Source: Tichowtungia aerotolerans
GTDB taxonomy: Bacteria > Verrucomicrobiota > Kiritimatiellia > Kiritimatiellales > Tichowtungiaceae
Assembly (NCBI RefSeq): GCF_009905215.1
Contig: NZ_CP047593.1
Span: forward strand, 2,422,900-2,486,899
Direction of reading: 5' to 3'
DNA: 64,000 nt
Positions 5,301 to 63,596 of this stretch are shown piece by piece. The notes beneath the pieces were generated by a model that made no database searches, was not told the origin of the DNA, and worked only from the letters and a program-made list of their open reading frames with translations. How positions within the stretch are numbered: position 1 is the stretch's first letter; each line of letters starts with the position of its first letter. The translations under genes and the position numbers were made by a program.

Positions 5301-6290
5301 TCAAACCTCCGGTACAGGGTCGATCAGTATCGGGCGGGTATGGAGATAGCGGGTGCTTCGTCTTTTGTGATCGATGTCTTGGTATACCCGCTGGACCTGT
5401 TCTGCGGTCAGGCCGCAGACTGCGCTGACTTCTTCACTGGAATAGCCGTGGTTTTTTCCATACAGGCAGAGATCCATTTTGTCGTGCGGCAGCGAAAAAT
5501 AGAATTCCTCCTGGCTTTGGGGCATGGAATAGGTGTCTGTTGTTGGGGGGCGCTTCCGGATTTCTTCCGGGATGCCGAGAAATTCTGCGAGTTGGTAGAC
5601 CTGTGTCTTGTAGAGGTGGGCGATCGGTTTGACATCGGCCGCGCCATCTCCAAGTTTGACGAAAAATCCCTGGTCGTATTCCAATCGGTTCGGGGTGCCC
5701 GCAACGGCGTAGTTCAATCGGTCGGCATGATAGTATTCGAGCATTTTCCGTACGCGCTGCTTAAAATTGCTGGCGGCCAGAATTCCGGCATATGCGTCGG
5801 GCGGAAGCAGTTCGGTGCGGGTGCTTCCGTCCGGTGCTTGAACGGCAACGGAAAATAGGCGGTAGCTGTCGTTATCCAGTAAGCTCGGAAGCAGGATTTT
5901 GCAGGTATATCCGGCGCCGTATTCGGGAATGACCTTGCGGATGGCCTCGTCCCGGTGGTGATAGCACCCGACAGCCTCCAGGATGTTGGTGATGTCCGTT
6001 TCGTTGGTTGCAATTCCCAGGTGATCTACGAGCTGATGGCCCAGCCTGCGGGTTGCGTCCGAAGAATCCTGCTCCGGCAGTAAAAGGCCGAAGACCTGCT
6101 CCTTGCCGACGGCGCGAATACAAAGCGCCCCGACCACGCTGCTGTCAATTCCTCCGGAGAGGGCGACGATCAACCCTTGTTTTTTGAATTGGCGGGAGAG
6201 TATCTCGCGCAGTGATTTCGATGTTTTTTCGACCTCCTGTTCGCAGTCAAGCCGGAGGCATTCACTCGAGAACGGTTTTTTACTGTTCAT
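5301..6290 (-). CDS. nadE: NAD synthase-type N-type ATP pyrophosphatase (NadE family)
   Basis: Protein of 329 residues with the PP-loop SGGIDSS (about residues 44-52), the family segment NRLEYDQGFFVKLGDGAADVKP in two conserved halves, and LYKTQVYQLAEFLGIP. In the family these act in ATP-dependent amidation of deamido-NAD. There is no glutaminase domain, so ammonia or a partner would supply nitrogen. It is the last gene of a minus-strand operon, 15 bp after the AsnB-type gene. It may be the cell's NAD synthase, or a paralogue that amidates a product made by the upstream ligase, carrier protein and amidotransferase; sequence alone does not decide this. The gene symbol refers to the family. Confidence 0.85.
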   Translation of the reverse strand: MNSKKPFSSECLRLDCEQEVEKTSKSLREILSRQFKKQGLIVALSGGIDSSVVGALCIRAVGKEQVFGLLLPEQDSSDATRRLGHQLVDHLGIATNETDITNILEAVGCYHHRDEAIRKVIPEYGAGYTCKILLPSLLDNDSYRLFSVAVQAPDGSTRTELLPPDAYAGILAASNFKQRVRKMLEYYHADRLNYAVAGTPNRLEYDQGFFVKLGDGAADVKPIAHLYKTQVYQLAEFLGIPEEIRKRPPTTDTYSMPQSQEEFYFSLPHDKMDLCLYGKNHGYSSEEVSAVCGLTAEQVQRVYQDIDHKRRSTRYLHTRPILIDPVPEV

Positions 6291-6305
6291 GGCTGGATCC
6301 TCTGT

Positions 6306-8282
6306 TTATGCGGGTTGTGCGGCATTTCTTCGGTCAATCAGGAGGTCGGGCGAGAAAGTGCAGTCATTGCAGGGTTTGAAGTTTTCGATAAATTGCCGGT
6401 GAAGCAGTTGTGTGGTCAGGATGCCTGTCAGGGCCATGTCGTCTGTTTCACTGACCGACTGTCCGGCCTCTGCCATTTTTACGAGCCTGGCAACCTTGCC
6501 CGGATCGAAAAATCCTGACCGCTCGAGTGAATCACGCGAAAGCCAGGACCGTATCCGGTCTTGCGGTCCGAGGCCGGATAACATGCCGGGACCGGGAGCG
6601 CGATAGGGTTGTTTTGGACGCAATCGAATCGAATCGGGCAGGGTGCCGCGAAAGGCTTTCTTGAGGATGTATTTTTCCTTCAAGCCAAGGATTTTCCAGT
6701 TTGCCGGAACGCGCCCCATAAATTCGATTAGGTTATGGTCTAGATACGGCAGGCGAATTTCAACCGATTGCCCCATGGCCATTCGGTCGCCCTGTGAGGA
6801 CAGCAGATAGTTGCCCATAAAGATGGTCATTTCCAGATACTGTGCCTGGGCCAGATGATCCCATGTCTGGAATGTTTCCGGCAGGCTGTTTCGGATTTCA
6901 TCGCAGCCCGAATAGGATCCGATGGCTGATTTCAGAGAACTGGAAAAATAATTTTTAATGCGGGACGTATTTTGCCAGCGCAAGAGATGGGAAAATAACG
7001 GGTCGGCGGTTTGGTCGAGCCCCCGCGCAAAGAAGGCCTGCATCATCGGTTTCAGTTTCGGATCCTTGAAGATATACGGGTAGAGGTGCGAAATCAGATT
7101 CGCCCGTTTTTGTGAGTCGGGGAACTTGGCCCAGAAACGACGGATGGAGGCCTCCCGGAAAATGTTGTAGCCGCCGAAAACCTCATCGCTTCCTTCGCCG
7201 GTCAGTACCACTTTCAGTTGTTCGGCTCGTACTTGTTTTGCGAGCAGGTACAGCGGCACGGGCGCGGTGCGCAGCAATGGTTTTTCGCTAAACCAGACGA
7301 CATCGGACAGGGCGTCGCCAATGTCGCTGTTTGAGATGATGAGTTCCATATGTTTAACCCCGAGAAGTTCAACCATCTGCCGCTGATACACGCTTTCGTC
7401 GTAGTGTTCGTTTTCGAAGCTGATCCCGAAGGTCTGGACGTTGCGGTTAAAGTTTCGGGCGACCAGTGCGGTGATGCCGGAGGAGTCGAGTCCGCCGCTC
7501 AGATAGGTTCCTGCCGGAACATCCGCCCGCAGGCGGATTCGTGTGGCTTCTTTGAGCAGATGCTGAACCTGCTCGCTGATTCGTTCAGGAGACCAGTCAA
7601 CCTGATCCTGTTTGGGAACAAAAGGCGTTTGCCAATAGCGGCTGACCATGCATTTCCCATACTGAAAATAGAGGCAGTGCCCAGCCGGCAGCTCCTTGAT
7701 CCCTTTGAAGGGGGTTCTGCCCGGCAGCGGGGACCAGAAGGTGAAGGTCTGATCCATCGCGATGGGGTCGATTTCGCGCGACACCTGGGGATTCATGAAG
7801 ATGGATTTGATTTCGGAGGCGAAGATGAGTTCCGATTCGGATTCGGTATAGTACAGGGGGCGGATGCCCACGCGGTCGCGCGCCAGGAAGCAGGATCGAT
7901 CCCGAACATTCCAAATTGCGAAGGCAAACTGCCCGTTCAGTTCCTTCAGACATCCGGCTCCTTTTTCTTCGTACAGGTGGAGGATAACCTCGGTGTCGGT
8001 CGTCGTGTAAAAACGGTGCCCTTTGGCAATCAGGTCCGCCCTTAATTCAGGATAGTTGAAGATTTCTCCGTTAAAGACGATCCACATCGATTCGTCTTCG
8101 TTGTGGATTGGCTGGGTGCCGGAGGAGAGGTCGATGATGCTTAGCCGGGTGTGACCGAGAGCGATGGATTCGTCGAGATAGATCCCTGACTCATCCGGCC
8201 CTCGGTGCCTGAGGGCGGCGGTCATGGCGACGATTCGGTTCCTGTCCCGCGGCTTTCCAACAATGCCGGCTATTCCGCACAT
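6306..8282 (-). CDS. asnB: asparagine synthase (glutamine-hydrolysing) family amidotransferase
   Basis: Protein of 658 residues. The N-terminal class II glutaminase starts MCGIAG, so Cys2 is the nucleophile once Met is removed; this fixes the start at 8282 rather than the ATG three codons upstream. RHRGPDESG and FNGEIFNY follow. The C-terminal synthetase domain carries the PP-loop SGGLDSSG near residues 260-270 and LTGEGSDEVFGGYN. It may make asparagine, but its place directly after an acyl carrier protein and an AMP-forming ligase resembles AsnB paralogues that amidate carrier-bound or saccharide substrates. Gaps to the neighbouring genes are 15 and 22 bp. Confidence 0.88.
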   Translation of the reverse strand: MCGIAGIVGKPRDRNRIVAMTAALRHRGPDESGIYLDESIALGHTRLSIIDLSSGTQPIHNEDESMWIVFNGEIFNYPELRADLIAKGHRFYTTTDTEVILHLYEEKGAGCLKELNGQFAFAIWNVRDRSCFLARDRVGIRPLYYTESESELIFASEIKSIFMNPQVSREIDPIAMDQTFTFWSPLPGRTPFKGIKELPAGHCLYFQYGKCMVSRYWQTPFVPKQDQVDWSPERISEQVQHLLKEATRIRLRADVPAGTYLSGGLDSSGITALVARNFNRNVQTFGISFENEHYDESVYQRQMVELLGVKHMELIISNSDIGDALSDVVWFSEKPLLRTAPVPLYLLAKQVRAEQLKVVLTGEGSDEVFGGYNIFREASIRRFWAKFPDSQKRANLISHLYPYIFKDPKLKPMMQAFFARGLDQTADPLFSHLLRWQNTSRIKNYFSSSLKSAIGSYSGCDEIRNSLPETFQTWDHLAQAQYLEMTIFMGNYLLSSQGDRMAMGQSVEIRLPYLDHNLIEFMGRVPANWKILGLKEKYILKKAFRGTLPDSIRLRPKQPYRAPGPGMLSGLGPQDRIRSWLSRDSLERSGFFDPGKVARLVKMAEAGQSVSETDDMALTGILTTQLLHRQFIENFKPCNDCTFSPDLLIDRRNAAQPA

Positions 8283-8304
8283 GTTGCGCACCTCCTGCCG
8301 GTTG

Positions 8305-8595
8305 TCAGCCGGATTTCACGCTCATTTCGCCGGTTGGCTGCGCAATGTTTCTATTTAGAAAGCGGACGATGTTGTCGATGCTGTCTAGGTTTTCCGGTAC
8401 GAACTGCTCGGGGCTGAGCTTAATGTTGCAGCTGTGCTCGATGAAGTCGGTAACTTTCAGGATTCCCAGCGAATCGATGATGCCGGTTTCCATAAACGAG
8501 GTTGAATCGCTTAAGCCGGAAGCATCTCCAAAGAGAAATGTTTCGACGATAAAGTCCCGGATGGTGCCGGGGTCAATTTGCTGTATTTCACTCAT
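8305..8595 (-). CDS. acyl carrier protein
   Basis: Protein of 96 residues with the phosphopantetheine attachment motif in GIIDSLGILK (Ser about residue 41) and the acidic helical pattern of carrier proteins. It lies 22 bp after the AMP-ligase gene and 22 bp before the AsnB-type gene, so it is probably loaded by that ligase. It is not the housekeeping fatty-acid AcpP, which would normally sit with fab genes. Confidence 0.85.
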   Translation of the reverse strand: MSEIQQIDPGTIRDFIVETFLFGDASGLSDSTSFMETGIIDSLGILKVTDFIEHSCNIKLSPEQFVPENLDSIDNIVRFLNRNIAQPTGEMSVKSG

Positions 8596-8617
8596 TGATC
8601 GCTCCTGTATGCCTGCA

Positions 8618-10117
8618 TCATGCAGGTGCCTGATTAATTTCTCTCAACTTTGGTTTTAGCACCTTGCCTGCACTGTTTTTCGGCAGGTGGCTGATGAATT
8701 CAACACTCTCCGGCACCTTGTATGCTTCCAGCCTGCCGGCAACATGATGGCGGACCTCTTCCGCCTCGAGCGCTGTGCCGCTTTTGACAACCAGATACGC
8801 TTTCAGCATTTCGCCCATGGTTTCATGCGGCACGCCGATGATTGCGGCTTCGATGATTTCCTTTAGTTCGCAGATCACGTCTTCCACTTCCTTTGCCCCG
8901 ACGCGTTTGCCGCCGGTTTTAATGAAATCGCGGGCGCGGTCCTGTACGAAAATGAAGCCGTCGCTGTCTACGCGTGCGAGATCTCCGGTGTAGAGCTTCC
9001 CGTTACGGAAAAATTTTGCGGTCTCGGCTTCGTCCGCCCAGTAGCCCTTGGTGATGTTGTCGCCACTGGCCACAATTTCACCGATTTCATCCGAGCCCCA
9101 GCAGACCGGGCGACCGTCCTTCTGCAAAACTTCCAGCCGGGTGGAGGGGAGTCCTTTGCCAATGGAGCCCAGTTTGTCCGTCAGCCGTTCCGGCGGAAGA
9201 TAGCTGAGCCGGGCGGTGGCTTCGGTTTGTCCGTACATCAGGAAAAATCGTGCCGCACTGAATGATTCCAGGATCTCGCTGATGAACGGGTTCGGCAGCT
9301 TTCCGCCTGCCTGCTGGAACCAGCGCAGTTTTGGCAGATTCCGTTGCCGGAGAGAGGTTTTGCGCAGCAGGATCTGGTAGGTGGAGGGGACCCCCGCGAG
9401 GCCGGTGCATTCCCATTTTTCCATATCGTCGAGAACGCTCTCCGGATACATGAACTGGTTGTTCAGAACGACACTGCCTCCGGCCATCAGGTGAGTATGG
9501 AGCAGCGAAGCGCCGAAGCAGTAGTGGAGCGGCAGGACAGCCATGACGCGGTCGGAAGGTGTGAGGTCGAGGTATTGAATGATGTCGCGGCTGTTGCACT
9601 CAATGTTCCGGTGCGTGACCATGACTCCTTTGGCGGTGCCGGTCGACCCGGAGGTGAACATGATTGATGCCAGATCTTCGCGGGGGTTTATTGTCGGCAT
9701 CTGAACGTCGGCGTTGCGAGTCGATAGGATGTTTTCATCTAGAATCTGCACGCCCAGTTTCGTCAGTCCGGGGTCGTGCTTTTTTACGTAGCGCCCGGAG
9801 ACAAAGGCAGCCTTCATTTTTGTGCTGTTGACGATATGGGCGAGAAGCTGATCTGAAATATCTCCCGGCAGGGGGACTGTTACTCTCCCAGCATGGATCG
9901 TTCCCAGATAGGCCGCGACGCAAAAGGGGCTGTTTTCAGAAATGAGCCCGATGCATTCGCCTTTTTCGCTGACTTTGGTTAAGGCGCACCCGATATCGCA
10001 GGTCATTTTGCGGAGGGCTTCGTAACTGGTTACGTTACGACCTTGTAAGATCGCGGGGCTTTGCGGTTTCCCGTTACGCAACAGGGTGTCCGCAATATTT
10101 TCTTCGTTGTATTGCAT
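8618..10117 (-). CDS. AMP-forming acyl/amino-acyl ligase (ANL superfamily)
   Basis: Protein of 499 residues in the acyl-CoA synthetase/adenylation superfamily. The ATP-binding loop TSGSTGTAKGV is at about residues 155-165. MYGQTEAT (A5-type), YTGDLARVDSDGF (A7-A8) and the C-terminal catalytic lysine in KNSAGKVLK are present. It adenylates a carboxylate and, judging by the next gene, probably passes it to the carrier protein. It is the first gene of the minus-strand operon and is divergent from the gene at 10351, with about 230 bp of shared intergenic DNA. The substrate cannot be read from the sequence. Confidence 0.88.
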   Translation of the reverse strand: MQYNEENIADTLLRNGKPQSPAILQGRNVTSYEALRKMTCDIGCALTKVSEKGECIGLISENSPFCVAAYLGTIHAGRVTVPLPGDISDQLLAHIVNSTKMKAAFVSGRYVKKHDPGLTKLGVQILDENILSTRNADVQMPTINPREDLASIMFTSGSTGTAKGVMVTHRNIECNSRDIIQYLDLTPSDRVMAVLPLHYCFGASLLHTHLMAGGSVVLNNQFMYPESVLDDMEKWECTGLAGVPSTYQILLRKTSLRQRNLPKLRWFQQAGGKLPNPFISEILESFSAARFFLMYGQTEATARLSYLPPERLTDKLGSIGKGLPSTRLEVLQKDGRPVCWGSDEIGEIVASGDNITKGYWADEAETAKFFRNGKLYTGDLARVDSDGFIFVQDRARDFIKTGGKRVGAKEVEDVICELKEIIEAAIIGVPHETMGEMLKAYLVVKSGTALEAEEVRHHVAGRLEAYKVPESVEFISHLPKNSAGKVLKPKLREINQAPA

Positions 10118-10350
10118 AAACGGTCCTCGTTAACACCTATGGCTTTGAGGTTTGCATCCAACGAGTGGGATCGTAATCGTCTGCCGGGAAGTGGCAAGAC
10201 TTAACTCGGCTGTCTGTACGATAATTTGAAAGCAGTGGACGGGGTTTGCTTCCCGCCGCTGTTGTGTGCCCAGGACAAGGTTAGCGGGTTGATTTTTGAG
10301 CATAACTCTATAATGTAAGCCGTGCTGGCAATAAACAGAGGGCTCGGAAT

Positions 10351-11445
10351 ATGGGAACCGTTCGTCACTTTCAGCCAACGGATATAATTCCTGTTGCGGA
10401 TCTTTTTCAAAAAGTATTCAGAAGAGGAGCGCAGAGATCATCCCCTTCGCTGCAATCTTACTTTGAAAAGCTGTATTTTAGTCATCCGTCTTATGATGAG
10501 TCCATGAGTTCTCTTGTGTATGTGGATGAGAAAAATAATGTCAGGGGTTTTATTGGCGGCCTTTCGACCGAATTTGAGTTTAAAAAACGCAAGGTAACGG
10601 CGCTTGTAGCCGGCAGCCATATGGTTGATCCTGATTTGAAAGATCCTATAGCAGGCGCTTTGCTGTTGAGAGAGTTCACTTCCGGGCCGCAAGACTTCAC
10701 CTATACTGATACTGCAAACTCAATTTCTATTGAGCTTTGGAGGGCCATTGGCGGAGATCTCCTTTTCCCGTATAGTACACAATGGGTTTATCCGCTTCGG
10801 CCTGGTTATCTATTCAATGTCAGACTCAAAAATCACCGGGGTGGAGATGTTCTTTCATGGCTGTCTTATCCTGCCTGTCGCCTTGTTGATGTTATTCATA
10901 AACGAGTGCTTGCTTGTGCATCTGATGAAAATGTATGCCGGTTAAGAGGGAAGGAGTTGGACGCAAACGCCATGTTTAACTCTTTCGAAACATTCAGGAA
11001 TCACCGGGCTCTTTTCCCCAGTTATGGGATTAAGGAGCTGAACTGGCGTCTTTCGCTCGCTGAAAGTAAGCAGAAAAACGGCAAGCTGTTTAAGATTGCT
11101 GTTTTTGATAAAGAAAAATTACAGGGATGGTACCTGGTATATATCCGGGATGGAGAAGAAGCTCATGTTTTGCAGCTTATTGCTCATCCAGCAAGCTTGA
11201 AACATGTTCTGAATCACCTTTTTACAACGGCTCAGACGCACGGTTGTTCGGCTATTCATGGAGATGTTGACCCCAAATATCTGGTGCAATTTCGGCAAGC
11301 AGGGTGTGATGATTTCCATGTTGGAGGAATGGCTATGCTGCACACTCAGGATCCGGAAATACGAAATGCAATTCTTAGCGGGGATGCATATATTTCTGCT
11401 TTGGAAGGAGAGCGGTGGACTCGTCTGCAGGCTGATGAATTTTAG
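10351..11445 (+). CDS. GNAT-like acyltransferase, function unknown
   Basis: Protein of 364 residues. The N-terminal part (MGTVRHFQPTDIIPVADLF) has the look of a GNAT acetyltransferase first strand and helix, and a second GNAT-like half seems to follow. No exact acetyl-CoA loop (Q/RxxGxG/A) was found. Base composition is visibly richer in A and T than the adjacent operon, suggesting separate origin. It is divergent from the ligase/carrier/amidotransferase operon and could transfer the acyl product of that operon, which is inference. Confidence 0.6.
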   Translation: MGTVRHFQPTDIIPVADLFQKVFRRGAQRSSPSLQSYFEKLYFSHPSYDESMSSLVYVDEKNNVRGFIGGLSTEFEFKKRKVTALVAGSHMVDPDLKDPIAGALLLREFTSGPQDFTYTDTANSISIELWRAIGGDLLFPYSTQWVYPLRPGYLFNVRLKNHRGGDVLSWLSYPACRLVDVIHKRVLACASDENVCRLRGKELDANAMFNSFETFRNHRALFPSYGIKELNWRLSLAESKQKNGKLFKIAVFDKEKLQGWYLVYIRDGEEAHVLQLIAHPASLKHVLNHLFTTAQTHGCSAIHGDVDPKYLVQFRQAGCDDFHVGGMAMLHTQDPEIRNAILSGDAYISALEGERWTRLQADEF

Positions 11446-11714
11446 TGAGCACTGTGTGTTCCGCATCCTGTATTAGCACTGAGCTTTCATCAAAAAGATG
11501 TGCTTACGCATATGATGGCGCTTAACCGCGCAGTTTTTCGACCCGCTGTAAAGCGGGAGTGATTGAAGTTTTGGGTCGGTTTTTCTCGCTCGGCTTCTGC
11601 CATCAGCAATTTATTGAGCTTAATACTGATATTGCCGATGCGAACAAGTTGAACAACGATGTTGACTTTTTGATCTCAATGCGCATCATCTCGCATCAGT
11701 TAGGTGATGCGTTT

Positions 11715-11903
11715 ATGAGTACTTTTGAAGGAACAGGGATCAAAAATCTTAAGGTGCGGGGCGGAGTGTACTACTGGCGCCAGAAAATTGACGGAATTCA
11801 GTTTTCGGAGTCGCTGCAGACCCGTGACCGCGAGGAAGCTTTGAGACGAATGGCGGAAAAAGCCGAAGCCGCGAAGAGCGGAGACATTTTAAAGGAGAAA
11901 TCA
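11715..11903 (+). pseudogene. probable integrase N-terminal fragment, in frame with the aldolase gene
   Basis: Sixty-three codons starting MSTFEGTGIKNLKVRG and continuing GGVYYWRQKIDGIQFSESL and TRDREEALRRMAEKAE. This pattern (aromatic-rich beta strands, then a basic helix ending in AEKAEAAKSG) is what I recognise as the arm-type DNA-binding N-terminus of tyrosine recombinases. No core-binding or catalytic domain follows. The frame runs without a stop directly into the aldolase gene. A CCCGCT-GTAA-AGCGGG hairpin lies just upstream at 11541-11556. The rest of 11446-11714 shows nothing else I can name. It could be a remnant or the 5-prime part of a fused gene. Confidence 0.55.
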
Positions 11904-12884
11904 ATGACGAAACAGAAAGATATCAGCGCGGAGTCGGTCGACTGCTGGCCGCAGCTCAAAGTGCTGGACTGCACCATCCGCGATGGCGGACTGATGAATA
12001 ATCATAAATTCAGCAATGAATTTGTCAGAGGCGTTCATAAAGCGCTGGTCGCTTCCGGAATCGACTATATGGAAATTGGTTACAAGGCGGATAAAAAGCT
12101 GTTCAGTGCAGATGATTACGGAATCTGGAAAATGTGTGATGAAGAGGATCTGAAAGCATTTTTCGGGGATGAGGATCCCGGTGTAAAAATCAGTGTTATG
12201 GCGGATGTCGGCCGCACCAATCACAGCGATATTGCGCCGCGAGACCAGAGCATGATTGATTTGGTTCGCGTCGCCTGCTATATCCACCAGATTCCGGCTG
12301 CGCTTGATATGGTGCGCGATGCTAAGGAAAAAGGATATGAGACATCGGTCAATCTGATGGCAATCTCGACTGTTCCGGAGTTTGAACTCAACAAGGGGCT
12401 GGAGTTGATCGGACGGTGTGAAGCAGCAGATATGCTGTACCTTGTTGACAGTTTCGGGTCCCTCTATTATGAGCAGATTGAAGATTTGATGCGCCGTTAT
12501 CGCGGCGCAATGCAGCACGGTCAGCAGATCGGAATCCATGCGCACAATAATCAGCAGATGGCCTATGTGAATACTGTCTGTTCGGCCATTAATGGTGCAA
12601 CCATGCTGGACTCCACCATCGACGGTCTCGGTCGCGGTGCGGGCAATTGTCCGACGGAACTGCTGCTCGGGTTTCTGCGCAATCCGAAGTTCCATCAGCG
12701 GCCGATTATTGAGGCGGTTGAGAAGCTGATGATTCCTCTGCATGAGCAGATCGACTGGGGCTACAGCATTCCCTATATGATCACCGCCCAGATGAACGAA
12801 CATCCGCGATCAGCCATCAAGATGCGTGAGAGTGAGGGTAAAAATCAACTGGTCTCTTTTTATGATGAAATTCATGACCAGTAA
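11904..12884 (+). CDS. DRE-TIM superfamily aldolase/lyase
   Basis: Protein of 326 residues in the superfamily of HMG-CoA lyase, homocitrate synthase and 4-hydroxy-2-oxovalerate aldolase. The metal/catalytic segment CTIRDGG is at about residues 23-29, and the metal-binding IHAHNN and the glycine-rich loop GRGAGNCPTELL lie later. The ATG at 11904 follows AAAGGAG by 7 bp, a strong ribosome site that marks this as the true start, although the reading frame stays open upstream for another 115 codons. Substrate is unknown. A clear terminator follows the gene. Confidence 0.82.
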   Translation: MTKQKDISAESVDCWPQLKVLDCTIRDGGLMNNHKFSNEFVRGVHKALVASGIDYMEIGYKADKKLFSADDYGIWKMCDEEDLKAFFGDEDPGVKISVMADVGRTNHSDIAPRDQSMIDLVRVACYIHQIPAALDMVRDAKEKGYETSVNLMAISTVPEFELNKGLELIGRCEAADMLYLVDSFGSLYYEQIEDLMRRYRGAMQHGQQIGIHAHNNQQMAYVNTVCSAINGATMLDSTIDGLGRGAGNCPTELLLGFLRNPKFHQRPIIEAVEKLMIPLHEQIDWGYSIPYMITAQMNEHPRSAIKMRESEGKNQLVSFYDEIHDQ

Positions 12885-13390: not shown

Positions 13391-14166
13391 GGTCGGCCTG
13401 TCTGGATGGCAATACGAACCTCTCCAAAACCACTCTCCATCCAGCATGGTGTCGATCGAGATGGCAATTCGAACTTAAAAATTTTCACGCTCTGTTTTTG
13501 TAAGGTATTGTAAATCAATAATTTGAAAGTTGATTCCATAAAAACGGGTCAGATCTGCTTTGTGTTCGATTTTTAGACGATTATTCAGCTTGGTCCACCT
13601 TTCCAAATAGCAATGCAAATCTATCCGGTTTCGCAAACCTAACCTTCGGATCACTAAAAACCTTAAAGCTCCGGTACAGAGCTTCATGGTCGAATGCGTT
13701 TGTGGAATGTTATATTGGCAAATGCAACCGGGAATGCCTGAATCACTTTGTCTGAGAAAGTCTTGATCATCTTGACTGCATCAATCGCGAATGGCTGGGG
13801 TATTACAACAATCACTGGTCGTATCAGGGTGTGGATATCGGAACCAAGGTTTTGCGACCGGATTTTACGTCGACAACCGAAGGCGAGATTAAGCGGGAAC
13901 AGAGACTCGGCGGCATTATTTCGTGGTACTACCGCGCAGCTGCTTAAACCTGTTCCGGCCAGTATTATCAGAGCGCGACTCTCCGTTCGGTATGGTCTGC
14001 TGATCTATCACGCCTTGACTCTGCCAATCTTGCTATTTTGACTTCAATCATCGTTTTCATCGTCAGAGAAAGTTGCGCTCTTTTTTGAAATTGCTCTGCA
14101 AATCCTCTTTTACCTGCTATAATTAGCAGGTTTTTCGATCTGCGTTTCGTTTTCGCACCGATCAAT
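13391..14166 (+). repeat. direct repeat copy A bounding the island (left)
   Basis: About 0.75 kb that aligns almost base for base with 62864-63596 in the same orientation. The match starts at GGTCGG and ends just after the TGCG-TTTGTTTTCG-like block. Copy A keeps about 42 bp (near 13681-13722) that copy B has lost. The repeat includes the transposase remnant described separately and roughly 200 bp on each side. The outer limits are approximate because both ends are degenerate. Confidence 0.85.
13684..13947 (+). pseudogene. integrase-core (rve) transposase C-terminal remnant, copy A
   Basis: Reading frame of 87 codons. It has SWSNAFVECYIGKCNREC, then a TGA at 13753, then SLDHLDCINREWLGYYNNHW, YQGVDIGTKVLRPDF and REQRLGGIISWYYRAAA before its stop. 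This is the conserved end of the IS481/IS3-like integrase-core transposases common in Planctomycetes and Verrucomicrobia (HQG plus RLGGxxxxYYR). The catalytic N-terminal part is absent, so the element cannot move by itself. Confidence 0.8.
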
Positions 14167-62863: not shown

Positions 62864-63596
62864 GGTCGGTCCGGCTTGATGGAAATACGAACTTCTCTAA
62901 AACCACTCTCTATCAAGATCGGTGTCGATCGAGGTGACAATGCGAACTTAAAAATTTTCACGTTCTGTTTTTGTAAGATATTGTACATCAATAATTTGAA
63001 GGTTGATTCCATAAAAACGGGTCAGCTTTGCTTTGTGTTCGATTTTTAGACGATTATTCAGCTTGGTCCACCTTTCCAAATAGCAATGCAAATCTATCCG
63101 GTTTCGCAAACCTAACCTTCGGATCACTAAAAACCTTAAAGTTCCGGTACAGATGCAACCGGGAATGCCTGAATCACCTTGTCTGTGTAAGTCTTGATTA
63201 TATCGACTGCATCAATCGCGAATAGCTGGGGTATTATAACAATCACTGGTCGTATTAGGGTGTGGATATCGGAAACAAGGTTTTGCGACCGGATTTTACG
63301 CCGACGACCGAAGGCGAGATTAAGCGGGAACAGAGACTCGGCGGCATTATTTCGTGGTACTACCGCGCAGCTGCTTAAACCTGTTCCGGCCAGTATTATC
63401 AGAGCGCGACTCTCCGTTCGGTATGGTCTGCTGATCTATCACGCCTTGACTCTGCCAATCTTGCTGTTTTGACTTCAATCATCGTTTCTCTCGTCAGAGA
63501 AAATTGCGCTCTCTTTTGAAATTGCTCTGCAATCCTCTTTTACCTGCTACAGTCAAAGGATTTTACGACCTGCGCTTTGTTTTCGAACGGATCACT
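62864..63596 (+). repeat. direct repeat copy B bounding the island (right)
   Basis: Aligns with 13391-14166 in the same orientation at high identity, apart from a deletion of about 42 bp after the CCGGTACAG at 63152 and scattered substitutions. The repeats share the transposase remnant and its flanks. The limits are approximate. Confidence 0.85.
63154..63378 (+). pseudogene. integrase-core transposase C-terminal remnant, copy B
   Basis: Seventy-four codons equivalent to copy A, with REQRLGGIISWYYRAAA and the same stop. In-frame TAG codons occur at 63223 and 63256, which copy A does not have, while copy A has its own TGA. The copies therefore decayed separately after duplication or separate insertion. 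Confidence 0.8.

Follow-up and report, generated by a model that had tools for sequence, protein, structure and literature searches.

Described systems closest to the locus

The NAGGN pathway combines an acyltransfer with an AsnB-type amidation, and the XrtA system has its own curated ligase (TIGR03098) and amidotransferase (TIGR03108). In the Wbp/Vim systems of Porphyromonas and Tannerella (WbpS, VimE, VimA), which act on a di-N-acetyl uronic acid, a carboxamide-making enzyme of the AsnB family is found together with a GNAT/FemAB-type protein presumed to N-acylate the amine of a sugar. WbpS is needed for the uronamide, VimA is presumed to add serine or glycine to the deacetylated amino sugar, and the authors pointed out that exosortase systems have related sets of genes (PMC7468200). 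A WbpS-like gene affects aggregation in Rubrivivax (PMC3684757). On pSymB of Sinorhizobium meliloti, the ligase gene SMb20650 is cotranscribed with the carrier gene SMb20651, and co-expression of both in E. coli gives acylated SMb20651, a result for which an earlier paper is cited; SMb20650 is a FadD homologue that does not replace FadD (PMC7232532). The function of the SMb20651 carrier was said to need further study (PMC5686131). Here we examine a stretch of 64,000 nucleotides from the Tichowtungia aerotolerans genome (contig NZ_CP047593.1; hereafter, the window) with genes for an acyl ligase, a carrier protein, an AsnB-type amidotransferase and a divergent member of the NadE family, NadEL. 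The set recurs in many bacteria and may constitute a carrier-dependent pathway for making amides. The relevant features, in window coordinates, are the following.

10351..11445, plus strand: probable GNAT-fold acyltransferase, divergent gene; 364 residues, of which 1-118 are GNAT-like
10118..10350, unstranded: divergent intergenic region of 233 bp, presumed site of both promoters
8618..10117, minus strand: AMP-forming acyl ligase; 499 residues, PF00501 (215 bits) and PF13193 (66 bits)
8305..8595, minus strand: stand-alone carrier protein; 96 residues, phosphopantetheine Ser 42 in a GIIDSLG motif
6306..8282, minus strand: AsnB-type glutamine-dependent amidotransferase, GATase_7/Asn_synthase; 658 residues from the MCGI start
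5301..6290, minus strand: NadEL, a NadE-family ATP pyrophosphatase (NF002048/PRK00876); 329 residues, PF02540, without glutaminase domain
5796..5969, minus strand: extra region of NadEL, residues 108-165, as defined by alignment with ordinary NadE

The ligase, carrier, AsnB and NadEL genes form one tight minus-strand run with intergenic gaps of 22, 22 and 15 bp, in agreement with an earlier note on this DNA, which had placed them in a single operon. The GTG start as listed for the AsnB gene lies three residues upstream of the MCGI start. The note had also described the acyltransferase-like gene as divergent and of different base composition, and so it is: its GC content is 0.447, and 0.395 at third codon positions (GC3), as against 0.49-0.55 and 0.64-0.66 in the four operon genes. 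In the 233-bp intergenic region, a promoter/terminator scan found promoter-like sites at a frequency not above that in shuffled sequences.

By analogy, the cassette may work like Wbp/Vim-type systems, and it lies outside the curated families tested for the ligase, the carrier and the XrtA and NAGGN amidotransferases. Among curated models, those of the XrtA ligase and amidotransferase rank first or second for the window ligase and AsnB, but both proteins fall far under the cut-offs (311.1 bits against 592.35 for TIGR03098; 449.7 against 816.9 for TIGR03108) and no exosortase lies near the window cassette. AsnB, whose GATase, SGGLDSS and GEGSDE motifs are intact, scores over the cut-off with TIGR01536 (513 bits, cut-off 267); it also matches the NAGGN amidotransferase model TIGR03104, but at 378.2 bits, under the cut-off of 570.1, and the five window genes include no ATP-grasp partner. 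The carrier stays just under the cut-off of PF00550 (20.6 bits against 20.8) and under that of NF052616 (41 against 130), its nearest NCBIfam models being an ornithine-lipid carrier and a cispentacin carrier, both under cut-off. An ornithine-lipid pathway (OlsH/OlsI), suggested by the best of these matches, was rejected, the match being under cut-off and the pathway paper containing no "acyl carrier". Unlike the cassette, the Wbp/Vim systems are described without the term "acyl carrier" anywhere in the text, and no ligase or NadE-like enzyme is named in the available portion (PMC7468200). VimA matches TIGR03019, whereas the window GNAT-fold protein matches no NCBIfam model. Relative to Wbp/Vim, the cassette would have a dedicated acyl carrier and a second, NadE-derived amidating enzyme. 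The open-access literature searched yielded no description of the four-gene set as a system. NadE1 and NadE2 of Azospirillum were considered and set aside, both being glutamine-dependent types as far as the available text tells (PMC7196632).

A cassette shared by distant bacteria

A global scan of named genome contigs returned at least 579 NadEL relatives, of which the best 80 were kept. Their neighbourhoods, many of them on short contigs, were searched at E 1e-4 with partner profiles whose seeds came from the window and from part of the 80 loci themselves, without separating subtypes. AsnB was found in 68 of the 80 loci, the carrier in 64, the ligase in 68 and all three in 54; among the 38 loci whose flanks both exceed 9 kb, the corresponding figures were 34, 32, 35 and 28. 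Record titles assign the hosts to Planctomycetota, Verrucomicrobia, Acidobacteria, actinobacteria and several proteobacterial groups, as well as to a Manganitrophus and a KSB1 bacterium. In the six other NadEL loci of the phylum, AsnB and ligase homologues adjoin NadEL in every case, with ligase matches only 25-27% identical in one locus (L024). The carrier was detected by BLAST in three of the six, and two of the three loci without it end close to NadEL. Seven ordinary nadE loci served as control (one stretch spanning just 11.9 kb): neither carrier nor ligase was present in any of them, and the single AsnB-profile match was to a NadE itself. Judged from these sequence comparisons, the recurring set is no local accident, and the NadEL gene is a conserved member of it representing a distinct subfamily, a point that adds to the earlier note. 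The note's interpretation of the locus as a small amide-forming cluster is supported as well, and the cassette is probably not a housekeeping one.

Two further stretches (L163 and L164) encode an AsnB 71-73% identical to that of the Mesorhizobium cassette, beside a GNAT paralogue; neither stretch shows a match to NadEL, ligase or carrier, and they represent a reduced variant.

The Sinorhizobium meliloti counterpart

In S. meliloti 1021, the cassette occupies the interval at about 1,450.6-1,455.4 kb of pSymB. This replicon has a single AMP-binding place (1452018-1453106), and it lies beside the cassette carrier. On the strength of this uniqueness, the record being without locus tags, the ligase and carrier of the cassette are very probably SMb20650 and SMb20651. 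The cassette carrier itself scores 13.8 bits with PF00550 (at 1453191), under the cut-off, and two stronger carrier places exist elsewhere on pSymB. Window proteins and those of S. meliloti strain RCAM1750 share 56% identity for NadEL, 46% for AsnB, 41% for the carrier and 33% for the ligase. The S. meliloti run reads asnB-acp-ligase-nadE, and a GNAT homologue is encoded at a distance of about 10 kb; the run differs from that of the window in gene order and in having a ligase of another subtype, as indicated by the low identity and by the motif. The published account, in its available portion, covers just the ligase and the carrier (PMC7232532). Through this counterpart, charging of the carrier by the ligase can be regarded as reported for this type of cassette.

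Surface-polysaccharide genes and other neighbours

The earlier note had pointed to kinship of such gene sets with exosortase and surface-polysaccharide loci, while seeing no exosortase or glycosyltransferase in the vicinity. Both statements hold. With a panel of 25 polysaccharide proteins, ten of which came from neighbours of these loci or of phylum loci, surface-polysaccharide genes were detected in 27 of the 39 NadEL loci longer than 20 kb, as opposed to two of seven control loci. By class, glycosyltransferases occurred in 12 of the long loci, exosortases in 8, sugar-phosphate transferases in 10 and export, flippase or chain-length proteins in 16. No window protein matched the panel at E 1e-5, and a query with one polysaccharide deacetylase found nothing there. 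It is only locally that the glycan context is missing: at about 3.00-3.03 Mb, the genome has an exosortase/exopolysaccharide locus with matches to sugar transferase, flippase and glycosyltransferase, and the sole exosortase match of the genome lies about 0.6 Mb from the window cassette.

Some cassettes have a fuller surrounding. In Azospirillum ramasamyi, glycosyltransferases, an O-antigen ligase and a polysaccharide deacetylase are followed by the four cassette genes and a GNAT gene; BLAST found no match between the product of this GNAT gene and the window acyltransferase-like protein. In S. meliloti, genes for a flippase, GumC, a deacetylase and glycosyltransferases are found some 12-25 kb from the cassette. 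As a regular neighbour, the polysaccharide deacetylase was rejected, none being found in the 39 long loci with the panel.

A HemK/PrmC-like methyltransferase accompanies nine loci in one cluster, with the NPPY motif in eight; the ninth, at a contig end, is without it. Such a gene was also present in all four rhizobial examples examined, and the two proteins tested, from S. medicae and S. meliloti, score over the HemK family cut-off and under that of PrmC. PrmC methylates the amide nitrogen of glutamine; because of this target, the PrmC-like neighbours lend indirect support to an amide product.

A GDSL/SGNH-like hydrolase, possibly a trimming enzyme, is encoded near the cassette in 14 loci (L048:16672-17526 and 13 others; 15 proteins). 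A GHQS motif was printed for 10 of the 15, and PF00657 scored under cut-off for the one tested.

Proposed pathway

We propose that the locus encodes a carrier-dependent amide-forming cassette, in which an acid is loaded, amidated once or twice and transferred to an amine, probably that of an amino sugar in a surface glycan; we put the probability of this reading at roughly 0.53. The AMP-forming ligase would adenylate a carboxylic acid and load it onto the phosphopantetheine arm of the carrier, as reported for the S. meliloti counterparts. AsnB, to judge from its family, intact motifs and frequent pairing, would hydrolyse glutamine and adenylate a carboxylate to give a carboxamide. On similar grounds (family, motifs, pairing), NadEL would adenylate a second carboxylate and amidate it with ammonia, perhaps ammonia released by the glutaminase of AsnB. 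The GNAT-fold protein would then pass the acyl group held by the carrier on to an acceptor amine, most likely that of a surface-glycan amino sugar. In other lineages, the transfer may fall to other acyltransferases, and the amide may be N-methylated by a PrmC-like enzyme. More tentatively, NadEL could be a NAD synthetase turned amide synthetase, acting on a carboxylate bound to the carrier or to a glycan; with AsnB, ligase and carrier it would serve a widespread and undescribed amide decoration of surface polysaccharides, whose genes now bear the names of NAD and asparagine synthesis in hundreds of loci.

A number of observations weigh against this proposal. The origin of ten of its members biases the polysaccharide panel, which also finds matches in the two control loci mentioned above; it detects no polysaccharide gene in 12 of the 39 long loci nor in the window, and the deacetylase, which would free the amine, in none of the long loci. 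No PrmC-like gene lies beside the window cassette. Within 10 kb of NadEL, one locus with full flanks (L031) shows a match to none of AsnB, carrier and ligase. Since the ligase pocket motif varies between cassettes, different loci may use different acids. Nor is the transfer step universal, homologues of the window acyltransferase-like protein occurring in just 2 of the 80 global NadEL loci; in the bacterial order surveyed below, NadEL is present in none of the 29 regions whose GNAT homologue is more distant (under 195 bits). Finally, most NadE positions that we take to bind deamido-NAD are kept in NadEL, which fits a real NAD synthetase too.

The nature of the acid could not be read from the ligase, although the earlier note had suggested the binding pocket as a guide: the cassette ligases split by pocket motif into two main subtypes, none of which gave a readable substrate. 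A rival reading has a different kind of product, a small lipid-like amide (an N-acyl amino acid amide). The ligase would load a fatty acid, the GNAT-fold protein would join it to an amino acid, and AsnB and NadEL would amidate the carboxylates left free, with no glycan involved. SMb20650, a FadD homologue that acylates its own carrier, would suit this scheme (PMC7232532), as would the two nearest carrier models and the match of AsnB to the NAGGN model, all of them under cut-off, and the 12 long loci lacking a polysaccharide gene. We consider it unlikely, if the most serious competitor, in view of the surface-polysaccharide genes in 27 of 39 long loci and of the polysaccharide deacetylases and glycosyltransferases in the cassette regions of Azospirillum and S. 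meliloti.

The divergent acyltransferase-like gene

Residues 1-118 of the acyltransferase-like protein resemble GNAT folds at Z 11-13, in a weak structural model (mean predicted local distance difference test score, pLDDT, 54.8) made from a three-row alignment. At E 0.01 the protein matches neither Pfam nor NCBIfam models, and its match to PF09924 is under cut-off (E 0.015). Homologues that align over almost the entire protein at 28-30% identity are encoded close to the cassettes of Mesorhizobium, Sinorhizobium, Aminobacter and Bauldia. In plasmids of Nitratireductor and "Roseateles" XES5, the homologue, annotated as "hypothetical protein", is the first gene of the cassette run. A plasmid collection contained the homologue in 104 records and NadEL in 116, with equal counts per genus save for Azospirillum (12 NadEL, no homologue); among the matches listed, 37 of 60 homologue records are also among 71 NadEL records, the others being undecided.

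A survey of one order (397 genomes) placed the homologue in 41 genomes at 57 places, which were covered by 52 regions, some clipped at contig ends. In 20 of the 52, NadEL is no more than about 10 kb from the homologue. Linkage is concentrated among the closer relatives: NadEL is linked in 20 of the 23 regions scoring at least 195 bits against the Mesorhizobium protein (a cut chosen after seeing the scores), and the genomes of the other three carry a linked pair elsewhere. A 65-row tree places the window protein in a group (99/95) that holds 29 linked rows and 5 unlinked ones, as opposed to 29 unlinked rows and 1 linked row in the remainder; the long branch of the window protein (1.68) and its unusual letter make-up render this placement unsure. 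In S. meliloti, a second GNAT homologue (L113:21331-22479), from the other, mostly NadEL-free branch, adjoins a Wzx-like flippase.

These data bear on whether the divergent gene is simply an unrelated newcomer with no part in the pathway. Its low GC3, its presence in 1 of 387 phylum genomes, its rarity in the global NadEL loci and the 29 of 52 regions where the homologue has no NadEL would all fit such an origin. We nonetheless regard it as improbable: alphaproteobacterial homologues stand beside or near the cassette, at the head of the run in two plasmids; NadEL is close by in 20 of the 23 top-scoring regions from the order surveyed; and the window protein, long branch notwithstanding, falls in the mostly linked tree group. 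The gene is probably a lineage-specific partner of the cassette and not an unrelated neighbour.

NadEL as a distinct NadE subfamily

NadEL matches NF002048 with 502 bits, over the curated cut-off of 313. Its predicted structure (pLDDT 89.3) has the NadE fold, with Z 27.5 to 2e18 and a root-mean-square deviation of 2.3 over 243 residues. The motifs SGGIDSS, GTxN..E, K..GDG..D, LYK and KRR are kept; these, we assume, contact ATP, Mg and deamido-NAD. NadEL departs from ordinary NadE in an inserted stretch. The region of NadEL residues 108-165 amounts to 58 residues in all 16 NadEL rows aligned, compared with 8-19 in 7 ordinary NadE rows; over residues 100-175, NadEL rows have 76 residues and ordinary rows 26-37, that is, 39-50 extra. 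Within the extra region some positions, such as Y110 and K131, are invariant among 37 NadEL sequences.

In the simplest reading of the sequence, NadEL has retained the chemistry and altered a substrate or partner site; the conserved extra region probably fits a new substrate or partner. Alternatively, NadEL might be a genuine NAD synthetase that uses ammonia, an extra copy that happens to travel with the operon. The fold, the ATP-pyrophosphatase and Mg/ATP residues and the retention of most deamido-NAD contacts (residue roles that we presume) speak for this possibility, as does an over-cut-off NF002048 match in the control genome of M. acetivorans. It is nevertheless quite improbable, considering that an ordinary NadE was found in all seven NadEL-bearing genomes searched (T. 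aerotolerans included), that NadEL keeps the same biosynthetic neighbours across phyla while ordinary nadE loci have neither ligase nor carrier, and that the extra residues common to the 16 NadEL rows are missing in the 7 ordinary ones.

Further nadE and asnB genes in the genome

Only one of the two additional genes whose presence the earlier note had thought informative was found in the T. aerotolerans genome (one contig, 3.88 Mb). An ordinary NadE of 647 residues is encoded at G000:C1:2152827-2153597, so NadEL is not the sole NadE; the window AsnB, in contrast, is the sole full-length PF00733 match. Asparagine can be placed on tRNA through amidation of Asp-tRNA, an established pathway. As the genome encodes GatB (514 bits, cut-off 315) and its best match to an asparaginyl-tRNA synthetase (AsnRS) stays under the cut-off (110 bits against 343), tRNA asparagine should come from this route, and translation should not depend on the window AsnB. 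NadEL occurs in 7 of 387 sampled genomes of the phylum (T. aerotolerans included) and in none of the five other genomes listed for the genus, a distribution that denotes an accessory trait.

A purely housekeeping assignment, with AsnB making asparagine and NadEL making NAD, thus has the lack of another full-length AsnB in its favour, but it is barely credible given the ordinary NadE, the combination of GatB with no AsnRS over the cut-off, and the five NadEL-free congeners; NadEL as a housekeeping enzyme and AsnB as the supplier of asparagine for translation were both judged unlikely on these grounds.

Consequences for annotation

The NCBIfam name of NF002048 is NAD(+) synthase, and the annotated records inspected use it. 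Sequence and context suggest that the NF002048 proteins of the cassette are probably not the NAD synthetases of the cell and that the name is probably wrong for them. If the cassette does serve a glycan or lipid pathway, the NAD synthase annotations of at least 579 stretches, and the metabolic models built on them, would be in error; re-annotation of these proteins would be the most useful outcome. The orphan ligase-carrier pair of a model symbiont would gain a set of partners open to deletion tests. That the cassette keeps amide-forming enzymes from two different families points to a product bearing more than one amide, which in some lineages would be N-methylated.

Other features of the window

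Downstream of the acyltransferase-like gene, positions 11559-12884 (plus strand) encode a PF00682 HMG-lyase/4-hydroxy-2-oxovalerate-aldolase-like domain. An in-frame upstream stretch is weakly DUF6538-like, under cut-off, which may reflect a fusion or a mis-set start. The gene was considered as a sixth member of the cassette and rejected, having no match in any of 86 loci. Direct repeats at 13391-14018 and 62864-63449, 92-96% identical and about 49.4 kb apart, flank a sulfatase-containing region and may bound a duplicated or mobile segment. Between 27961 and 36316, large open reading frames have in common blocks of DNA that are 60-86% identical (families D1, D2 and D6-D8).

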